This document shows, in pieces, positions 1,674-8,317 of a DNA stretch of 13,874 nt. Position 1 is the stretch's first letter. Each line of letters opens with the position of its first letter. This stretch comes from Clostridiales bacterium (GTDB lineage Bacteria > Bacillota > Clostridia > Oscillospirales > Oscillospiraceae). Under the pieces are notes generated by a model that made no database searches, was not told where the DNA came from, and saw only the letters and a program-made list of their open reading frames with translations. The DNA lies in NCBI GenBank assembly GCA_902363045.1, contig CABIYX010000052.1:1-13874 (forward strand), in the 5' to 3' direction. Both the position numbers and the translations under genes were made by a program.

Positions 1674-2030
1674 CTACGCTCCCTCACAATATGATTTTCT
1701 TGTCTGCATGATTGGGAGCATACCAAACACACCGCCGCACTCCGCACAGCGTTTCAAGTCCCTGTCCCGGTAAATCTCCGCTTCCAGCGTCCTGTCCAGC
1801 GGCAAGACCGCCCAGCGGAACCACTTGCAGCAGACGGAGAACGAAATCATCTGCGGACAGGCGCAGGTGTCGCCATCGTCCAGCGCAAGGCAGTTTCCGT
1901 CCTCGCAGTTGCAGCACTCCCGGCGTATCAGGCCGCTGGCTCGTCTCTTCTGGGGCGGGGTTATGCGGTAGGGGGAGCCGTCCGGCCTGTGTTCCAGCGG
2001 CGGCAGGTGTTGATAGGGTCTTTTGCTCAT
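1674..2030 (-). pseudogene. cysteine-rich VLP protein, 3' end probably lost at IS junction
   Basis: 118 residues with the hallmark RRECCNCEDGNCLALDDGDTCACPQ cluster broken over residues 37-62, then VCCKWFRWAVLPLD containing the VLP motif, then a CAEC pair and a final YCEG. This small zinc-ribbon-like family is common in mobilizable and conjugative elements of gut Firmicutes; its function is unknown. From memory the family continues after the last CxxC with a basic tail. Here the frame ends right after Cys-Glu-Gly with Ala-stop, at the base where the IS begins, so the fourth metal-binding cysteine pair is broken. Start ATG at 2030 has GGAGGG 4 bases upstream. It could instead be a naturally short variant. 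Confidence 0.75.
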
Positions 2031-2164
2031 GCGTCCCTCCGTTTTCTTTGGCGTGTTCTGTTTCCAAGGTGCTTGTCCATCGATGAACTATCCCAAGTCT
2101 ACACCTTTTTGACCGCCTGTGCCGTATATCCAAGAGGTAGGAAATCAGCCTGAAAAACTCCCTA

Positions 2165-2193
2165 TTTCCACGCTCTCGGATTTGTGATATAAT
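2165..2193 (+). promoter_or_regulatory. sigma-A-type promoter for the small gene at 2259
   Basis: Perfect TATAAT at 2188-2193 with an extended -10 (TG at 2185-2186) and a weak -35 (TTTCCA, 2165-2170) at 17-bp spacing. It lies 65 bp before the ATG of the next gene. Confidence 0.6.
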
Positions 2194-2258
2194 CAAAAAA
2201 AGACAAAAGACAAATTCAGGTTTCTGGTCTTCTTGCACAAAATAAAGGAGGAGCTATT

Positions 2259-2522
2259 ATGCAAATTGTTTATATTCCAAGCGAATCAATGTCTGTTCAA
2301 GGTAAAAAAGATGAAATCTATAAAAGATATGGGAAAGACTGGAATATTAGAGAACAGGGAGGAGGTAACGGAAATTGGTTGTTGACCAGAAAAAGTGATG
2401 TGCTTGTAGATGGAAAAAGTTATCGTACTTTTGTACTTGAACACTACGGTAAATCCAAGCTGACAGCGAAGCTTGTTGATAAATTTCGTGAAGATGTAGC
2501 AAATGGTAAAATAAAACTGTAA
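2259..2522 (+). CDS. small AT-rich hypothetical protein
   Basis: 87 residues, not recognised. It is supported as a gene by a strong Shine-Dalgarno (AAAGGAGGAG) 7 bases before the ATG, a promoter 65 bp upstream and a terminator immediately after the stop. The protein is lysine-rich and mixed alpha/beta in appearance (QIVYIPSES, WLLTRKSDVLVDGKSYRTFVLE), with no signal peptide, membrane span or cysteine. Its base composition is much lower in GC than the neighbouring genes and it has its own promoter and terminator, which suggests a separately acquired cargo gene. The VDGKSYRTFVLEHYGKSKLTAKLVDKF part looks like a small folded domain; I assign no function. Confidence 0.75.
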   Translation: MQIVYIPSESMSVQGKKDEIYKRYGKDWNIREQGGGNGNWLLTRKSDVLVDGKSYRTFVLEHYGKSKLTAKLVDKFREDVANGKIKL

Positions 2523-2530
2523 ATGCCTAT

Positions 2531-2567
2531 GCCGTTATGCTATGAGCATAGTACATAGCATAACGGC
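2531..2567 (+). terminator. intrinsic terminator after the small gene
   Basis: A 14-bp perfect stem (GCCGTTATGCTATG, 2531-2544, with its complement at 2554-2567), 9-base loop, followed by the pyrimidine-rich TTCTCTTTC. The T tract is imperfect, so some read-through to the XRE gene is possible. Confidence 0.7.
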
Positions 2568-2600
2568 TTCTCTTTCGTTGAGCTAGCAAGGAGGGTGAAT

Positions 2601-3401
2601 ATGTCTTTATCCATACAAGAGCGATTAAAAGACCTACGTGTGGAGCGTGGCTTGACGCTGGGGCAGCTTGCGGAGCAGACCGGGCTTTCCAAGTCTGCGC
2701 TGGGCAGTTACGAAACGGAAGACTTCAAGGACATCAGCCACTATGCCCTTATCCGGCTGGCGAAGTTTTACGGTGTGACCGCTGATTATCTGCTGGGGCT
2801 GTCTGAAATGAAAAATCACCCAAACGCCGATCTTGCAGACCTGCGTTTGAGTGATGAAATGATTGACCTGCTGAAAAGCGGGAGGATAGACAATACCCTG
2901 CTGTGTGAGCTGGCGGCGCACCCGGATTTCCCCCGGCTGATGGCTGACCTTGAAATCTATGTGAACGGAACGGCACTGAAACAGGCGCAGGGTGCAAACG
3001 CCATAGTGGACACGATGAGCGCAACTGTTATAAAAAAGCATAATCCTGGCATGAGTGATACGCAGTTAAGACAGCTTATCACCGCCCATATTGATGAGGA
3101 CGAGTTTTGCCGCTATGTGATACAACGGGACATAAACGGGATTGCCCTTGCTCTGCGGGAAACACACAAGGACGATTTTTTCAGCGTCCCAGAGGATAAC
3201 CCGCTAAAAGAAATGCTGGAAACTGCTGGTGAAATCGTCAGCCAGGACAGCGACACGGAACAAGCGTACTTGGCGTTTATCTGCAAACGGCTCAAGCTGA
3301 ATTTTAGGAAGCTGTCAGTAGAAGAACGGAAGTGGCTGAAAAAGATTGCGGAAAAATCCGACTTGCTGAAGAATCCAAAACCGCAGAGAGGACGAAGATA
3401 A
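2601..3401 (+). CDS. XRE-family HTH transcriptional regulator
   Basis: 266 residues. The N-terminal Xre/Cro-type HTH spans about residues 5-65 (RLKDLRVERGLTLGQLAEQ, with recognition helix SKSALGSYE, then the ADYLLGLSE end typical of the family). The remaining 200 residues have no recognised domain; they are acidic and helical and may serve oligomerisation or ligand sensing. The ATG at 2601 is preferred over the in-frame GTG at 2595 because the Shine-Dalgarno AAGGAGGG (2588-2595) overlaps that GTG and sits 5-6 bases before the ATG. It faces the efflux gene convergently across a shared terminator. Such regulators are usual in Firmicute mobile elements; its target is unknown. The 60-bp gap upstream holds mainly the preceding terminator, so it may rely on read-through. 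Confidence 0.9.
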   Translation: MSLSIQERLKDLRVERGLTLGQLAEQTGLSKSALGSYETEDFKDISHYALIRLAKFYGVTADYLLGLSEMKNHPNADLADLRLSDEMIDLLKSGRIDNTLLCELAAHPDFPRLMADLEIYVNGTALKQAQGANAIVDTMSATVIKKHNPGMSDTQLRQLITAHIDEDEFCRYVIQRDINGIALALRETHKDDFFSVPEDNPLKEMLETAGEIVSQDSDTEQAYLAFICKRLKLNFRKLSVEERKWLKKIAEKSDLLKNPKPQRGRR

Positions 3402-3453
3402 AAAATGCCTGAACGGCGGTTCTGGTTTTTCAGAACCACCATCCAGGCATTTT
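3402..3453. terminator. bidirectional terminator between XRE gene and efflux gene
   Basis: Two-part hairpin: outer stem AAAATGCCTG (3402-3411) with CAGGCATTTT (3444-3453), inner stem GGTTCTG (3418-3424) with CAGAACC (3431-3437). A run on one side and T run on the other allow it to act for both convergent genes. Confidence 0.85.
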
Positions 3454-3481
3454 GTTTAGTAATAGAAAAAGGTGCAGTTGA

Positions 3482-4702
3482 TTATTGCGTATTGTCAATC
3501 TCTCTCAAACCGGGTAGTAAAAATACGGCAAGCGCAACGATGATAATGCCAATTCCGCAAATGACAAACCATTTCTCAACTCCCAGCCGCTCCGCCAGAG
3601 GCCCGGAAATGACAAGGCCAAACGGCATGGCGAGGGAAGCGGCGCTTGTCAGTAGAGAAAAAACTCTCCCCAGATATTCTGGTTTGACCGTTTCTTGAAA
3701 AATCGCATTTTGCACACCGTAAAATGGAGCGGAAATTCCCATAACAGTACAGCACACAACAAAGACAAGAAATGCGTCTGGCGGCAAAAGCCCGGAGAGC
3801 ATATTGCTAACGCCCATCAGGAGAACGGAAAGACCGATGGTGTACCGCCGTTTCTTAAAACCGCCCCAAATGCTCAGAATGACTCCGCCAAGCAGCATAC
3901 CAACCGCAAAAGCAATTTCAGCGGCAGAGGCATGGGCCGGTGTTCCTTTGAAGTATGACATACAGATGAGAGGAAAAAGCGTACTGATTGGCATATAAAA
4001 GAACATATAAATTACACCAATCCAGAGCAGAGCAAAGAGGCCCCTGTTTTGCTTTAATACCACATACCCCTCTTTCATATCCTGTAAAAACTGTTGTCTT
4101 TTCGTTTCTGGACATAGTTCAGGCGTTGGTATGGACGAAATCGCAACAGTCACACAGGCAAGGATTGCACCCACAATATCTAACAATATAATTGCATTAA
4201 GAGGCCAAACAGCATATAAAAACGCTGCGGCAGCTGGACTGATAATCGCACTTACTGCTTGCATGGTCTGCGTGTAACCAGCGCATTTTGTAAGTTCCTC
4301 TTTTGGCACAATCATAGGTGTTGCTGCGCTGAATGCTGGAGAATGAAAAGCAGTTCCCGCACTTCGGATTAACAGGACAACCATAATAGACCATACGGGC
4401 AATTCCATGTAAAACGCCACCAGCGCCAGAATACCGCCAGCGGCGGCAATTATCAAATCCGCACCAATCATTACGCTTTTACGGCTGTGCCGGTCAACAA
4501 AAGCACCTGCAAACGGGCCTAAACAGGCTTGCGGCAAAAATCCAATCAGTGTTGCCGCCGTCAATATGATTGCAGAATTAGTTTTCGCAACCAAATAAAA
4601 GATAATGGCCATTTGCAAAATACCGCTGCTAATAAAGGATATTGCTTGTCCGGCAAGAAGTGTAAAATAAGTTTTTCTCCATGAATTGTTGTTTTGGGTC
4701 AT
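3482..4702 (-). CDS. mef: Mef-type macrolide efflux MFS transporter
   Basis: A proton-driven major facilitator with about 12 membrane segments, 406 residues, almost exactly the length of Mef(A) (405). From memory, long stretches match Mef(A): AGQAxSxIxSxILQMAIIFYL near the N-terminus, MIGADLIIAAAG, VAFYMELPVW, LTKCAGY, LNAII, and KPEYLGRVFSL near the C-terminus. The MFS loop-2 motif is present as GAFVDRHSRKSVM. Macrolide export is therefore the likely role, although substrate range of divergent relatives cannot be read from sequence. The start is the ATG at 4702 (MTQNNNSWRKTYF), with AAAAAAGGAGG 8 bases upstream. A longer in-frame extension to 4828 runs through an attenuator hairpin and is rejected. 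No msr(D)-type ABC-F partner follows; transcription ends at a shared terminator. GC content is clearly below that of the flanking mobilization genes. Confidence 0.88.
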   Translation of the reverse strand: MTQNNNSWRKTYFTLLAGQAISFISSGILQMAIIFYLVAKTNSAIILTAATLIGFLPQACLGPFAGAFVDRHSRKSVMIGADLIIAAAGGILALVAFYMELPVWSIMVVLLIRSAGTAFHSPAFSAATPMIVPKEELTKCAGYTQTMQAVSAIISPAAAAFLYAVWPLNAIILLDIVGAILACVTVAISSIPTPELCPETKRQQFLQDMKEGYVVLKQNRGLFALLWIGVIYMFFYMPISTLFPLICMSYFKGTPAHASAAEIAFAVGMLLGGVILSIWGGFKKRRYTIGLSVLLMGVSNMLSGLLPPDAFLVFVVCCTVMGISAPFYGVQNAIFQETVKPEYLGRVFSLLTSAASLAMPFGLVISGPLAERLGVEKWFVICGIGIIIVALAVFLLPGLREIDNTQ

Positions 4703-4753
4703 AATGCGAACCTCCTTTTTTATTGCATTGTTCCTTTGTTTCTGCAATAAAAA

Positions 4754-4788
4754 GCAGGCGTTGTCCCACAGAGAGGGCAGACGCCTGC
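4754..4788 (-). terminator. leader terminator (attenuator) nearest the efflux gene
   Basis: On the minus strand, GCAGGCGT pairs with ACGCCTGC over 8 bp. The stem is extended inward by TGCCC/GGG-A-CA with one bulge, and U5 (4749-4753) follows. It lies about 50 bases before the efflux ATG, between its promoter and its ribosome-binding site, so a stop here would silence the gene. Confidence 0.75.
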
Positions 4789-4813
4789 ATAACAACAAAG
4801 CACGAAAAAACAC

Positions 4814-4840
4814 CACGATACAGTTCAAAGACTGCTCGTG
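4814..4840 (-). terminator. second terminator-like hairpin in the efflux leader
   Basis: CACGA/TCGTG (5 bp) plus CAGT/ACTG (4 bp), separated by a small internal loop, closed by a 6-base loop and followed on the minus strand by U6 (4805-4810). Confidence 0.55.
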
Positions 4841-4880
4841 TCAAACCTACGTGTTCCTTTGCATACGCACGCAAAAAAAG

Positions 4881-4897
4881 CCCACCATCATGTGGAA
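4881..4897 (-). terminator. weak hairpin plus U7 in the efflux leader
   Basis: On the minus strand UCCAC pairs with GUGGG (one G.U) around a 6-base loop, followed shortly by U7 (4873-4879). The stem is short, so termination is uncertain; it may be a pause site. Confidence 0.35.
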
Positions 4898-4936
4898 AGG
4901 TACTTCTACTTTTTATTGCTTATTAGCGTACACAAA

Positions 4937-4959
4937 TTAACACACGTAAGCCTCCTTCC
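4937..4959 (-). promoter_or_regulatory. strong Shine-Dalgarno with a two-codon leader ORF
   Basis: GGAAGGAGG on the minus strand (4951-4959) is an excellent ribosome-binding site, but the only start at good spacing is GTG TGT TAA (4945-4937), a Met-Cys-stop peptide. A strong ribosome site with almost no coding sequence at the head of a resistance-type leader suggests ribosome-dependent attenuation. This is inference. Confidence 0.4.
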
Positions 4960-4977
4960 AATCTCAAACTGTCGCAC

Positions 4978-5007
4978 AGTATAACACACATCCGATAGAC
5001 TTGTCAA
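4978..5007 (-). promoter_or_regulatory. sigma-A promoter of the efflux gene
   Basis: Consensus -35 TTGACA (5007-5002) and -10 TATACT (4983-4978; or TTATAC one base upstream) at 17-18 bp spacing on the minus strand, about 270 bp before the efflux ATG. It leaves a long untranslated leader containing the hairpins at 4881-4897, 4814-4840 and 4754-4788. Confidence 0.85.
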
Positions 5008-5058
5008 CCATTTTTAACCTTGTTTTCCATCTTGTTTTTCCATCTCTTACGGGCAGTA

Positions 5059-5137
5059 GCAAAGCCAGGCGAGCCAGTCAACGGTCAAGATGAACGGCGC
5101 TTTCAGCGCCGCCGTTGACAGTCTCGCCCGTCTTTGC
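5059..5137. repeat. 79-bp nested inverted repeat
   Basis: Four co-linear stems close on one centre: GCAAAG (5059-5064)/CTTTGC (5132-5137), GGCGAG (5068-5073)/CTCGCC (5123-5128), GTCAACGG (5077-5084)/CCGTTGAC (5112-5119) and GGCGCT (5096-5101)/AGCGCC (5105-5110) with a TTC loop. Interruptions are small except on the left of the inner stem. No T tract follows, so it is not a simple terminator. Confidence 0.75.
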
Positions 5138-5151
5138 TAATGGGTAATCAA

Positions 5152-5182
5152 GGCGGGAAAGCCATTTTAGGGCTTTCCCGCC
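5152..5182. repeat. 12-bp perfect inverted repeat
   Basis: GGCGGGAAAGCC (5152-5163) pairs with GGCTTTCCCGCC (5171-5182) around a 7-base loop ATTTTAG. No strong T run follows on either side. Confidence 0.75.
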
Positions 5183-5287
5183 CATTTCAATTTTGGGAGA
5201 AGAAAGGCCCCAAAATGAACGAGTGCGGCCAAACACTTTTAGGGATTGGCCACCTTGTCCACCCATCCAGCGGGGCGGCGGGGAACG

Positions 5288-5326
5288 GTCAAGGCCGGGC
5301 GTCAGCCCATTCATTTCAGCCTTGAC
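5288..5326. repeat. two-part inverted repeat
   Basis: GTCAAGGC (5288-5295) pairs with GCCTTGAC (5319-5326). Inside it GGGC (5297-5300) pairs with GCCC (5305-5308) around GTCA. Confidence 0.6.
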
Positions 5327-5393
5327 GGTTTCCTGCCGTCCTGCTACTTTTCCCGGAGTGTGGCCACACATCTGGTCACGGTGTCCAGAGCTT

Positions 5394-5410
5394 TGGGACT
5401 TTTTGTCCCA
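5394..5410. repeat. short hairpin with T5 loop
   Basis: TGGGAC (5394-5399) pairs with GTCCCA (5405-5410) around five Ts. Confidence 0.5.
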
Positions 5411-5478
5411 TAGGCCGGGGGCGGAGGACGAGGGACGGGGGCTTTCATAATACGCCCTGTCTGCTGCTGAAATCAGCC

Positions 5479-5510
5479 CTTTGTTTCCGGCTTACCAGCC
5501 CCAAACAAAG
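5479..5510. repeat. 8-bp inverted repeat
   Basis: CTTTGTTT (5479-5486) pairs with AAACAAAG (5503-5510); the 16-base loop is GC-rich. Confidence 0.5.
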
Positions 5511-5586
5511 CCCTGCTTTCCTGCCGCGTCAAATGCCCTTGCCCTCCCCGGCGGCAACGGTATTTTCAGGGCAACGCCGACAGAGC

Positions 5587-5623
5587 GTATAACACACTAC
5601 ACTTTGCTCCGCAAAGTCGTGTG
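5587..5623 (-). other. oriT: MobV-type origin of transfer (oriT) with nic site
   Basis: On the minus strand a hairpin ACTTTGC-GGA-GCAAAGT (5617-5601) is followed by GTAGTGTG then TTATAC. This has the layout I recall for the pMV158 oriT: a hairpin ending in AAAGT, a short spacer and the core TAGTGTG|TTATAC, nicked at the bar. By analogy the nick falls between 5593 and 5592 on the minus strand. An outer stem CACAC (5593-5597)/GTGTG (5619-5623) extends the hairpin exactly to the nic position. The matching MobV relaxase is encoded at 6861-7820. Transfer from this nic would lead with lower coordinates (efflux gene, XRE) and bring the relaxase gene in last. Confidence 0.85.
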
Positions 5624-5648
5624 CCAAATGGGGCGCTGCCCCCTTTGG
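5624..5648. repeat. hairpin abutting oriT
   Basis: CCAAA (5624-5628)/TTTGG (5644-5648) and GGGGC (5630-5634)/GCCCC (5638-5642), one mismatch, GCT loop. It begins at the base after the oriT hairpin. Confidence 0.6.
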
Positions 5649-5657
5649 AAACCCCCG

Positions 5658-5706
5658 CAACAAACAGGTGCTATGCACCCAGCCGGGAGCATAGCGCCGT
5701 TTGTTG
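5658..5706. repeat. long hairpin beside oriT
   Basis: CAACAAAC (5658-5665)/GTTTGTTG (5699-5706), then GG/CC with a G.U pair, then GCTATGC (5670-5676)/GCATAGC (5689-5695). About 18 bp with one bulged A, 12-base loop. It may be an accessory-protein site or a structured RNA; no T tract follows. Confidence 0.7.
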
Positions 5707-5740
5707 TCAGCAGCCCGTTTCACGGTCTGCGTGTAGTTCC

Positions 5741-5769
5741 TTGTAAACTGACCTAACAAATAGTATATA
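5741..5769 (+). promoter_or_regulatory. promoter of the sigma-like gene
   Basis: -35 TTGTAA (5741-5746), 17-bp spacer, -10 TATATA (5764-5769), in an AT-rich patch 59 bp before the GTG start. Confidence 0.6.
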
Positions 5770-5827
5770 CTTATGCCGTAAATAAATGTAGAGATAGAAT
5801 AACCTGTTCAGAAAGGAGGTTTCTTTC

Positions 5828-6676
5828 GTGTCCGTTATCTACCGTTTCCCCTATGACAGCCCCGTCCGCTACCTACCGCTGGTCTACCTGCTCCCCTATG
5901 ACTTGATTTTCCGGTTTCCTACCCTCCGCAAATTGCCCCGGAGCATGGGGGCGCTGAACGCCTCCCCGGAGTGGGGCGAGGTCATTTTGAGCCAGCAGTT
6001 TTTCGGTGAAATCACGGACGCTGTGGCCTCGCTGGTGTTTCCCCACTTCGGCTTCGGCGGCTGGAAGGAGCATTACACAGGCTATTCCCCGGTGTGGCGT
6101 CTGTCCTACGCCCTGCCCCTGTGGGCCAAGGGGGTGGAGCAGGTGGGGAAATGGGGCGTGCAAACACTGTTCAGTCTGCCTCCCGGCTATGTCATTCCGT
6201 TTCCAGACCCGGAGAAGGTCGGGGGGCTGATGAAACTGGTGGTGGAGCAGACCATCGAGGAGCAGGGCTGGGGGCCAATGCTGGAAGTGGTGCGGGAAAT
6301 GCCCTGCGACGAGGACTTTGAGAAGTGGGACACCAATGTCCGCAAAGACTTCCTCCGAAAGTGGTATCACACCCGCTCCAAGCGGGTGCAGACCGTTTCG
6401 CTGGAGGAGTGCATGGAGGACGAGGACAGCAAGATCCATTCCCTGCCCGCCCCGGAGGGGGACTTCACGGGGCAGGTGGAGGGGGAGGACTTCTGCCAGC
6501 GTTTCAAGGCCACCCTGTCGGACAAGGATATGGCGATTTTGGAATTGCGGGTGGAGGGGTACACATTCGGGGAGATAGCGGACAGGCTGGGGTACAAGAC
6601 CCACAGCGCCGTAGTCAAGCGCATGGAGGCGATCAAAAAGCGGTTTATCCAGTACGAAAACGAAACAGGGCGGTAA
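5828..6676 (+). CDS. sigma-70 region-4-like HTH protein of mobile element
   Basis: 282 residues. Residues about 230-275 (LSDKDMAILELRVEGYTFGEIADRLGY, then a second helix with KRMEAIKKRF) form an HTH like region 4 of sigma-70 factors, which binds -35 DNA. The N-terminal 190 residues, rich in aromatic and proline residues (FPYDSPVRYLPLVYLLPYD), resemble no sigma region 2 that I can see, so it is unlikely to be a complete sigma factor. An acidic linker lies at about 195-225. The GTG start at 5828 is chosen for AAAGGAGG 8 bases upstream and the promoter at 5741-5769. A terminator follows directly. Related proteins accompany relaxase genes in gut-Firmicute elements, and a role in regulating mobilization is plausible but unproven. 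Confidence 0.85.
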   Translation: MSVIYRFPYDSPVRYLPLVYLLPYDLIFRFPTLRKLPRSMGALNASPEWGEVILSQQFFGEITDAVASLVFPHFGFGGWKEHYTGYSPVWRLSYALPLWAKGVEQVGKWGVQTLFSLPPGYVIPFPDPEKVGGLMKLVVEQTIEEQGWGPMLEVVREMPCDEDFEKWDTNVRKDFLRKWYHTRSKRVQTVSLEECMEDEDSKIHSLPAPEGDFTGQVEGEDFCQRFKATLSDKDMAILELRVEGYTFGEIADRLGYKTHSAVVKRMEAIKKRFIQYENETGR

Positions 6677-6713
6677 AGCCACGCAAGCCGGACACGGCGG
6701 GCGTGGCTTTTTT
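6676..6713 (+). terminator. terminator after the sigma-like gene
   Basis: AAGCCACGC (6676-6684) pairs with GCGTGGCTT (6701-6709), inner GCCG/CGGC stem, then T6 (6708-6713). The stop codon overlaps the first base of the stem. Confidence 0.85.
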
Positions 6714-6822
6714 GCGCCCAAAAGTGAACAGGCCAGCGTTACCATTTAGGGATCAAAAAGCATTGATTTTGCAAGGCTTCCCGGCCCCAGAACAGAGGAT
6801 GCCTGTGTAGTATCATTCCCAC

Positions 6823-6836
6823 CCCCGGAAACGGGG
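6823..6836 (+). promoter_or_regulatory. GAAA-tetraloop hairpin ahead of the relaxase ribosome site
   Basis: CCCCG-GAAA-CGGGG lies 14 bases before the AGGAGG of the relaxase gene. The rest of the 184-bp gap (6714-6860) shows only a possible -10 (TAGTAT, 6808-6813) without a good -35. Confidence 0.35.
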
Positions 6837-6860
6837 AAATACCGTCAACAAGGAGGTACA

Positions 6861-7820
6861 ATGGCACAAAAGGCACAGCACGCAATTTTGCGCTTCGCCA
6901 AGCACAAGGCGGGACCTGCCGGGGCGCTGGAAGCCCACCATGAGCGCACAAAGGAGCAGTACGCCAGCAACCCGGACATTGACACCAGCAGGAGCAGGGA
7001 CAACTTTCACATCATCCAGCCCACGCAGAAGTACCGGCGGGAGATCGACAGCCGTATCAAGGCGGCGGGGTGCCGCACCCGGAGGGACAGCACCATGTTC
7101 GTGGACACGCTGATAACCGCCAGCCCGGAGTTTTTCACGGGCAGGAGCAGGAAAGAGGTGCAAGCCTACTTCACGGAGGCGGCGGCCTTTATGGAAAAGA
7201 AGGTGGGCCGGGGCAATATCTTTTCCGCCGTGGTACACATGGACGAGAAAACGCCCCACCTCCACCTGTGCTTCACCCCCATCACGGAGGACGGGCGGCT
7301 GTCGGCAAAGGAGATTTTAGGCAACCGGGCGCAACTTTCCCAGTGGCAGGACGAGTTTCACGCCCACTTGAAAAAGGCGTTCCCCGTCCTCAAGCGGGGC
7401 GAGAGCGCCCTTGTCACCAGACGGAAGCACATTCCCACATGGCTGTTCAAGCAGTCCGTAGACCTGACCCGCCAGCAGCAGGCCATAGAAAAGGCGGTGT
7501 CTGAAATCGGGGTGCTGAACGCCGGGAAGAAGCGGGACGAGATCATGGAGATGGTGGGGCCGTATTTCTCCCGGCTGGAAAGGCATTTGGGGCAGATGAA
7601 GAAATATCAGGCCACCATCGACTATCTGACGCAGGAGAACGAGGGCTTGAAGGAAAAGGTCAACAGCGAAAAGAGCATACAGAAGCAGATGGAAGTCCTC
7701 ATGCTGAAAAAGGAAAACGAACAGCTCCGGCGGTTTGTCCAGCGCATACCCCCGGAGGTCAGGCAGGCACTCAAGGAACAGCAGCAGGGCCAGCGGCGGG
7801 GCAAAGACCGCCAGCGGTAA
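6861..7820 (+). CDS. mobV: MobV-family (Mob/Pre) relaxase
   Basis: The relaxase nicks oriT and pilots the single strand during conjugative mobilization. Seen: motif I-like GALEAHHERTKEQY (residues 21-34), where H26 aligns with MobM H22, followed by NPDIDTSRSRDNFH, and motif III HMDEKTPHLH at 126-135, the HxDE...PHxH metal/active-site signature. In my recollection of pMV158 MobM the same positions 126, 129, 133 and 135 carry the metal and catalytic residues. Residues about 225-300 form a coiled coil rich in Q, E and K. At 319 residues it is shorter than MobM (494) but keeps the whole catalytic domain. ATG at 6861 has AAGGAGG 5 bases upstream. The cognate oriT is at 5587-5623. A small gene follows 24 bp later, probably co-transcribed. 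No coupling protein or secretion genes are present, so transfer would need a helper. Confidence 0.95.
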   Translation: MAQKAQHAILRFAKHKAGPAGALEAHHERTKEQYASNPDIDTSRSRDNFHIIQPTQKYRREIDSRIKAAGCRTRRDSTMFVDTLITASPEFFTGRSRKEVQAYFTEAAAFMEKKVGRGNIFSAVVHMDEKTPHLHLCFTPITEDGRLSAKEILGNRAQLSQWQDEFHAHLKKAFPVLKRGESALVTRRKHIPTWLFKQSVDLTRQQQAIEKAVSEIGVLNAGKKRDEIMEMVGPYFSRLERHLGQMKKYQATIDYLTQENEGLKEKVNSEKSIQKQMEVLMLKKENEQLRRFVQRIPPEVRQALKEQQQGQRRGKDRQR

Positions 7821-7844
7821 AACTTTAGAAACACGGAGGTACAT

Positions 7845-8027
7845 TTGGGAAGAAGAAAAAAGCTGATTAACAACTCCGACATTCCCCAGCACCAGATCGA
7901 GGCGATAGCCCGCTGTATCATGCCGGACATTCTCGCTTTCTATGAGAGCGAGGAGGGGCAGCGGGAATTTGCCGAATGGAAGAAGCAACGGGAGGCGGAG
8001 AGGCAGGAGGCCAAAACGAAAAAGTGA
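7845..8027 (+). CDS. small basic protein downstream of relaxase
   Basis: 60 residues starting at a TTG (7845), chosen because GGAGGT lies 4-5 bases upstream and no ATG fits. It begins with GRRKKLINNSDIPQHQIEAI, followed by a helical core (MPDILAFYESEEGQREFAEW) and a charged, coiled-coil-like tail (KKQREAERQEAKTKK). I recognise it as a small conserved protein that often follows MobV genes in gut-Firmicute elements; function unknown, possibly a relaxosome accessory factor. It is separated from the relaxase by 24 bp and followed 4 bp after its stop by a very strong terminator, so relaxase and this gene form a two-gene unit. Confidence 0.75.
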   Translation: MGRRKKLINNSDIPQHQIEAIARCIMPDILAFYESEEGQREFAEWKKQREAERQEAKTKK

Positions 8028-8030
8028 CGA

Positions 8031-8073
8031 AAAGGGCGGGCGCACCGTACAAACGGCTGCGCCCGCCCTTTTT
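8031..8073 (+). terminator. strong terminator closing the mobilization unit
   Basis: A 14-bp perfect stem AAAGGGCGGGCGCA (8031-8044) with 8058-8071, an inner CCGT/ACGG stem, and T5. Confidence 0.92.
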
Positions 8074-8181
8074 GCGTTTATGGGGTTGCTTTCTTCTTCC
8101 GTGGGCCTCTCGGTTTGGAGGTGGGCCTCCGCCGTACCCCGTTGCGGAAATAGGTGGTTTCATAGCGGTCAAAGAAAAGCA
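8074..8181. other. probable right junction region of the mobile element
   Basis: Lies between the last element terminator and the tRNA terminator. It holds a 9-bp direct repeat GTGGGCCTC at 8101-8109 and 8121-8129 (two helical turns apart). It also has an open minus-strand frame of about 30 codons ending at 8078 in a basic tail (RRRPTSKPRGPRKKK), without start or ribosome site. No integrase is in the window. The exact boundary cannot be set from one end. Confidence 0.4.
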
Positions 8182-8223
8182 ATAATCCGAACCCATCGCC
8201 TATCGGAAACGGGTTCGGATTAT
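8182..8223 (-). terminator. terminator of tRNA-Leu
   Basis: ATAATCCGAACCC (8182-8194) pairs perfectly with GGGTTCGGATTAT (8211-8223), 16-base loop. On the minus strand it begins 7 bases past the CCA end and is followed by TGCTTTTCTTT. Confidence 0.8.
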
Positions 8224-8230
8224 ATTGGTT

Positions 8231-8317
8231 TGGTGCGCGAGGCGGGAGTCGAACCCGCACGCCCTTGCGAGCACTGGCACCTGAAGCCAGCGAGTCTACC
8301 AATTCCACCACTCGCGC
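8231..8317 (-). tRNA. tRNA-Leu(CAG)
   Basis: Complete type II cloverleaf on the minus strand: acceptor GCGCGAG/CTCGCGC, D arm with GTGGAATTGGTAGAC, anticodon stem CTGGC/GCCAG with loop TTCAGGT giving anticodon CAG (reads CUG). The long variable arm and T arm GCGGG-TTCGACT-CCCGC follow, and CCA is encoded at 8233-8231. Its 3' end faces the mobile element. Confidence 0.97.

Follow-up and report, generated by a model that had tools for sequence, protein, structure and literature searches.

A predicted transfer origin and the genes around it

The window, by which we mean the whole stretch of 13,874 nucleotides that was analysed, carries a predicted MobV-type origin of transfer (oriT) on the minus strand, in a block of DNA belonging to a mobile element that we call B. 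The DNA to the right of this block belongs to another element, A. The features of the window are:

9 to 1725, minus: IS3-family insertion sequence (IS) with two open reading frames, 996 to 1673 and 100 to 963 (match to NF033516, transpos_IS3), and putative ends TGGTGTGCC...GCATACCA
1726 to 5756, minus: an end of element B, in inverted orientation; full-length copies elsewhere end at the same base
1726 to 2030, minus: Cys_rich_VLP gene of B (PF14194, E 8.8e-29), cut by the IS; the frame runs into the IS to 1674, and the longer frame is seen in locus L056 (8904 to 9317)
2595 to 3401, plus: HTH regulator of B (PF01381/PF12844), within the 4,031-bp B block
3482 to 4828, minus: Mef(A)-like MFS efflux gene, the cargo of B (NF000245, TIGR00900)
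4978 to 5007, minus: sequence resembling a promoter, TTGACA-18-TATACT, for the efflux gene (11 of 12 positions match in a scan)
5587 to 5623, minus: predicted oriT of B, MobV type, pMV158-like, with an inner hairpin at 5601 to 5617, an outer CACAC/GTGTG stem and a predicted nick between 5593 and 5592 (sequence, core scan, relatives, pUB110 and pMV158 core)
5740 to 5756, minus: terminal sequence of B, TTAGGTCAGTTTACAAG, its TT being the likely crossover dinucleotide
5757 to 8230, plus: resident element A, its right-hand portion with the sigma-like gene, MobV and the right end near tRNA-Leu, from blastn; the right boundary is approximate
5828 to 6676, plus: gene of A for a sigma-70-like protein (TIGR02937, E 1.8e-5, below the cut-off; no Pfam match)
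6861 to 7820, plus: MobV relaxase of A, 319 aa, with the metal motif HMDEKTPHLH (profile matches, MobM alignment, tree)
8231 to 8317, minus: tRNA-Leu (cag), the likely integration site of A (tRNA prediction context, clade A loci)

Read on the minus strand, the oriT spells CACAC-G-ACTTTGC-GGA-GCAAAGT-GTA-GTGTG/TTATAC, where the last slash marks the predicted nick. Its parts are:

5623 to 5619, minus: outer left arm, CACAC
5618, minus: spacer, G
5617 to 5611, minus: inner left arm, ACTTTGC
5610 to 5608, minus: loop, GGA
5607 to 5601, minus: inner right arm, GCAAAGT
5600, minus: a G missed in an earlier description
5599 to 5593, minus: core TAGTGTG, then the predicted nick
5592 to 5587, minus: TTATAC, 3′ of the predicted nick

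That preliminary description, made from the sequence before this analysis, had read a hairpin followed by TAGTGTG/TTATAC. The place and the letters are borne out, but the G at 5600 had been left out; the arm really continues as GTAGTGTG, and with this G counted the spacing from hairpin to nick is 8 nt. The likeness to the MobM nic core is borne out: the 13-nt core is identical in pMV158, whose letters are printed in PMC5863519, and in the pUB110 record. The outer stem ends at the predicted nick, as had been proposed, and this layout is the same in the pMV158 and pUB110 origins. The plasmid pE194, a third yardstick, offered a diverged candidate site only and was set aside. A GTGTG/TT nick core placed 8 nt after a hairpin is the mark of a MobV-type oriT, and the site has it. 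Together these comparisons support the reading of 5587 to 5623 as a pMV158-like predicted oriT of the MobV type inside a mobilizable element.

Elements A and B

In BLAST comparisons with the loci of relatives the window falls in two parts. Positions 1726 to 5756 align in inverted orientation to a block in, for example, L056, and are 1 to 3 nt apart in 4,031 from all 16 copies of B compared (1 nt apart for 9 of the 16). The complete element is 7,626 bp long (L056, 5178 to 12803) and is common to loci whose flanks differ. In all 13 loci that contain it in full, reaching both ends (11 other loci are partial), it begins with TTAGGTCAGTTTACAAGG and ends with CTTGTAAACTGTACTTT, with TT at both ends. 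All 13 start at the terminal sequence found in the window. So does a fourteenth copy, in G001, which has yet another flank. Full-length copies therefore number at least 14, in 12 differently named genome records, one viral contig and one further genome (G001), and among the named hosts are Negativibacillus, Emergencia, Butyricicoccus, Sellimonas, Gemmiger and Faecalibacterium. Of the 13 copies other than the reference copy, L072, twelve are 0 to 2 bases from it and one (L068) is 99 bases away. Thirteen of the 14, L072 included, are thus no more than 2 nt from L072; with such copies at different sites in many genera, B appears to have moved recently and frequently.

The gene order of B is the oriT core, which starts 157 nt from the end, the Mef-like gene, the HTH gene, Cys_rich_VLP, MobV and a large serine recombinase. 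The L056 copy encodes both the serine recombinase (PF00239/PF07508) and the MobV (PF01076) between defined ends, while the window shows one end only. By its predicted genes, B is an integrative mobilizable element (IME) with a MobV and a large serine recombinase. In the copies of B the element's own MobV is encoded on the nicked strand and starts about 4.66 kb from the nick. The efflux protein scores 541.7 bits against NF000245 (MefA), below the cut-off of 675, and 332.6 bits against TIGR00900, above the cut-off of 319.6; since the Mef match begins at residue 47, translation probably begins at the ATG near 4708. A phage-type search returned 79 records, each spanning less than 80% of the query, and 17 of the 20 rows listed match the mef region only. 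Among the papers listed, no title describes this mef element, which is not proof that it is unpublished.

The gene at 6861 to 7820 is a well-supported MobV relaxase. It scores 166.7 bits against PF01076 (E 7.4e-49, cut-off 25.5) and 155.9 against NF041497 (MobV, cut-off 100), and matches the solved MobM chains with E 1.7e-19. His26 and HMDEKTPHLH align with the 4lvi chain, so that the HxDE...PHxH motif is complete. We take the His26 column to be that of the catalytic histidine of MobM, His22. An uninterrupted MobV with this motif does lie close to the oriT, as had been described: the edge of the oriT is 1,238 nt, and the nick 1,268 nt, from the start of the gene.

The relaxase is 59% identical to the MobV of B. 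A tree of 33 rows places it in a clade of 11, which we call clade A (support 100/100), where the relaxase is sister to L013 (Pseudoflavonifractor; 97/94). Rows more than 97% identical were merged for this tree, so the arm or hexamer given for a merged row is that of one member; L024 (short), L106 to L115, and L049, L096 and L105 (stops in a simple read) were left out. Among the matches listed, every clade A locus with upstream DNA (11 of 11) has its own oriT on the relaxase strand, 2,090 to 8,069 nt upstream. In relatives of the relaxase's own element the conserved nic is thus at another place than in the window, an outcome that the preliminary description had named as refuting it. Scans for core and hairpin found no A-type oriT elsewhere in the window. 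In L013 and L015 a serine recombinase lies close to their own oriT.

Homology of clade A loci to the window begins, by blastn, at 5755 to 5757 in 6 of 11 (L013, L015, L017, L018, L019 and L023) and at 5762 to 6038 in the other five, and in all 11 it extends through the relaxase. The junction between 5756 and 5757 is exactly the end of B, and the relatives of A continue from 5757 with a conserved promoter-like stretch. Just before this stretch there is AA in 6 of the 8 relatives of A inspected and AG in L018 and L023. The TT at both ends of B and the AA in the relatives fit an insertion of B at a TT/AA dinucleotide.

Further features of A were noted. The sigma-70-like gene precedes the clade A relaxase, and a GTATATACTTATG-like stretch lies upstream of it in the relatives inspected (window 5757 to 6676); this gene may control element A. 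Nine of 12 clade A loci have a tRNA-Leu on the same side, 414 to 445 nt past the relaxase match in eight and 624 nt past it in L019. The relatives (L013 to L024) end near genes with the anticodons caa, tag, gag and cag, so A may target a segment that tRNA-Leu genes have in common and not a single isoacceptor. The scan of the window proteins turned up no genes for helper conjugation.

Conservation of the site and comparison with known systems

The core alone is only weakly special. The exact TAGTGTGTTATAC occurs once in the window. When up to 3 mismatches are allowed there are 4 matches, where 0.84 would be expected, and a count of 4 is also reached in 2 of 200 shuffles. When GTGTGTTA is combined with a hairpin of 6 to 7 bp at the right spacing a single site remains in the window (double-counted, with arms of 6 and 7), and none of 200 first-order Markov resamplings of the window contains a core with a correctly spaced hairpin. 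Folding of 58 nt as single-stranded DNA gives the drawn structure as the minimum, at -8.0 kcal/mol with a z-score of only -1.16, so the fold energy by itself is not exceptional. The z-score is -0.41 for the L013 oriT, which has a different outer stem, and -2.67 for that of pUB110.

A possible second oriT at 4979 to 4991, with 2 mismatches, was rejected. It has no hairpin, and we regard it as a nic look-alike because the promoter-like TTGACA-18-TATACT site overlaps there.

The question of chance is settled by the relatives, whose conservation is stronger evidence than the core scan. We scanned 103 relaxase loci, the best 80 of 543 relatives in genome_contigs and 23 in viral_contigs. Hairpin and core, with at most one mismatch, were found in 70 of 104 sequences, that is in these loci and the window. 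In 68 of the 103 loci (the best 80 of 543, and 23 viral) the oriT is upstream on the relaxase strand, at 974 to 8,227 nt, and in none of the 103 is it upstream on the opposite strand. The other two of the 70 are L053, where it is downstream on the opposite strand, and the window, which is alone among these sequences in having it upstream on the opposite strand. Of the 34 loci in the same set of 103 that are without hairpin and core, 10 are the distant relatives L106 to L115; just five of the remaining 24 have at least 5 kb of upstream DNA (L027, L047, L048, L067 and L099), and L099 has the exact core with a poorer hairpin. The exact core is still present with relaxases that are 45% (L103) and 46% (L099) identical. 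At a like distance L098, L100, L101, L102 and L104 have no core within 1.2 to 4.5 kb of upstream DNA.

Pairing in the arms is also conserved. In an alignment of 28 distinct origins, 98.5% of the cells pair, compared with 65.8% at most when the partner is slid along, and three pairs are altered on both sides (9 cells). Two imperfectly aligned rows were retained: pUB110, whose left arm is out of register, and L026, which is shifted. There is no excess of further pair types over shuffles (430 of 500 reach the number seen), a control that is lenient because the aligned rows are kin. The compensatory changes in the arms support the predicted hairpin as genuine.

In L053 the site, at 17354, lies over a serine-recombinase-like frame (17429 to 18751). 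This layout is perhaps another rearranged or nested case.

The predicted oriT resembles those of pMV158 and pUB110 (MobM, MOBV1) in the identical TAGTGTG/TTATAC, the 7-bp hairpin whose end is 8 nt from the nick and the outer stem that ends at the nick. According to PMC5863519, the IR1 hairpin of pMV158 is 8 nt from the nick, as here, and its IR3 stem is 12 bp, the number of pairs in the inner and outer stems of the window taken together; MobM cuts GTGTG/TT (PMC5090054). There are also differences. In pMV158 the oriT and the mobM promoters overlap, on the mob strand (PMC5863519), whereas in the window and its relatives it lies about 1 to 8 kb from the relaxase. The pMV158 group of MOBV1 has three overlapping inverted repeats; the window has IR1- and IR3-like stems, while the IR2 arms that span the nick are not kept and the IR2-like GTGTA/TATAC is too short. 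For this reason we file the site as a MobV-type oriT that would work like that of pMV158 but is outside the pMV158 group. The absence of IR2 agrees with an oriT that has ceased to overlap the relaxase promoter.

IMEs with a MobV and a serine recombinase are already known, also nested in ICEs of Streptococcus suis, from PMC5704250, PMC7168690 and PMC13089153. B is like the Tn4451-class and S. suis IMEs in having a MobV and a serine recombinase, in being small, in inserting with low specificity and very short target identity, and in nesting; it is unlike them in its efflux cargo, its TT ends and its host, which is a MobV element and not an ICE. The likeness to Tn4451 is one of described features (PMC5704250). 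B is a further case of these known IMEs, here nested in a mosaic. Relatives of B that carry AadE include L004 and L134, whose MobVs are 91% and 89% identical to that of B; they differ in cargo, and their DNA is 84% and 88% identical over 46% and 54% of B.

L134 (AP025982.1, 16905 to 24862) has the ends of B, a MobV, a recombinase and aadE in a conjugative plasmid of Campylobacter jejuni, and no exact nic core was found in it. Its presence in C. jejuni means that the family of elements to which B belongs spans phyla.

Proposed working and the partner of the oriT

With high confidence, although from sequence comparison, we read the oriT as that of B, a 7,626-bp efflux IME nested in inverted orientation in A, with the visible relaxase being that of A and the oriT presumably working as in pMV158. 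That the source genome also holds the relaxase of B and the oriT of A is something we infer from relatives. B would have arrived through insertion by its serine recombinase at a TT dinucleotide, and would excise to form a circle. A MobV relaxase would then bind the hairpin and cut GTGTG/TT on the minus strand through a histidine, as in pMV158, where cutting by MobM depends on a histidine (PMC5863519). The relaxase would remain on the 5′ end and the strand would be led through the conjugation pore of a helper element, so that the efflux gene, at the leading 5′ end, would enter the recipient early. The natural partner of the oriT would be the MobV of B, and the relaxase of A would normally serve the oriT of A.

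Even so, the relaxase of A probably recognises the oriT of B too. The cores of three owners of A-type relaxases, L017, L019 and L022, whose relaxases are 82 to 88% identical to that of the window, are 1, 1 and 2 loop bases of 39 from the core of the window, and the arms in the clade A tree rows alternate between GCAAGGT and GCAAAGT. Compatible with the nested reading, and somewhat favoured by us, is therefore the idea that the relaxase of A acts on the oriT of B, in cis or in trans, and that the chimera would be mobilizable even if the relaxase of B were lost. The 59% identity between the two relaxases speaks against this, and the oriT of A itself would compete.

Homology to B stops at 1726, and the IS cuts B between 1725 and 1726; the MobV of B would lie either beyond the left edge of the window or be lost. 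That the insertion removed the relaxase and the recombinase of B, leaving beside the efflux gene an orphan oriT that moves in trans only, is in our view somewhat less likely than not; it is also compatible with the nested reading. There is no clear target repeat, as this would have it: the 8 bases left of the IS are GGACAAAG, whereas B would give GGACGAAC if the IS had simply inserted with a 3-bp repeat. However, eight bases are too few, 6 of the 8 agree, and the end of the IS is itself a deduction from two related copies in L132, with the L131 match two bases longer. Matches to the IS DNA in other genomes are weak (2/146 and 14/391) and allow the left end to be deduced but not the target repeat.

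The preliminary description had joined the oriT and the relaxase at 6861 to 7820 into one active mobilization cassette. This is not supported, since the block around the oriT, up to its end at 5756, is almost the same as B, and the relaxase belongs to clade A. In a pMV158-type cassette the oriT is directly upstream, on the relaxase strand; here it is on the opposite strand, 1,268 nt away and in a different element. A single element with a cognate pair would agree with the uninterrupted MobV so near the nick, with the use of the same nic core by A-type relaxases, and with L005, an Enterococcus faecalis plasmid that has an oriT with one mismatch near 6010 (minus strand), 308 nt before a MobV at 6318 to 7244 (plus strand; 47% identical). 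L005 is either a natural opposite-strand layout or another mosaic, and because of it the opposite strand alone is no proof of a mosaic; what speaks for two elements is the near-identity to B and the exact end. Against a cognate pair stand also the 68 of 103 loci described above and the hexamer downstream of the oriT. This is GCTCTG in the window and CTGCCG or CTGCTG in the other 10 clade A tree rows, and within the tree GCTCTG is found in B-clade rows only, some of which have CTGCTG too. We consider a cognate cassette very unlikely. More improbable still is an assembly artefact that joined A and B: B is present in many genomes and could be misassembled, but the junction is precisely at its recombination end, with AA at the matching position in 6 of 8 relatives of A.

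The nested reading places a pMV158-like oriT in a 7.6-kb element with an efflux gene, of which at least 14 full-length copies occur at different sites. It also illustrates that an oriT need not be partnered by the relaxase closest to it, and that nesting and the flank of the nic site should be checked. With a nic core in common, co-resident elements allow a direct test of cross-mobilization. We would put at just under even the chances of a broader proposal, that the MobV elements of gut Firmicutes have one nick code over relaxases that are 45 to 60% alike, that a nested element gives its host a second, reverse-pointing oriT that can be used, and that either relaxase could send either element. 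If this is true, the window would be a case from nature of two elements served in common by a single relaxase.
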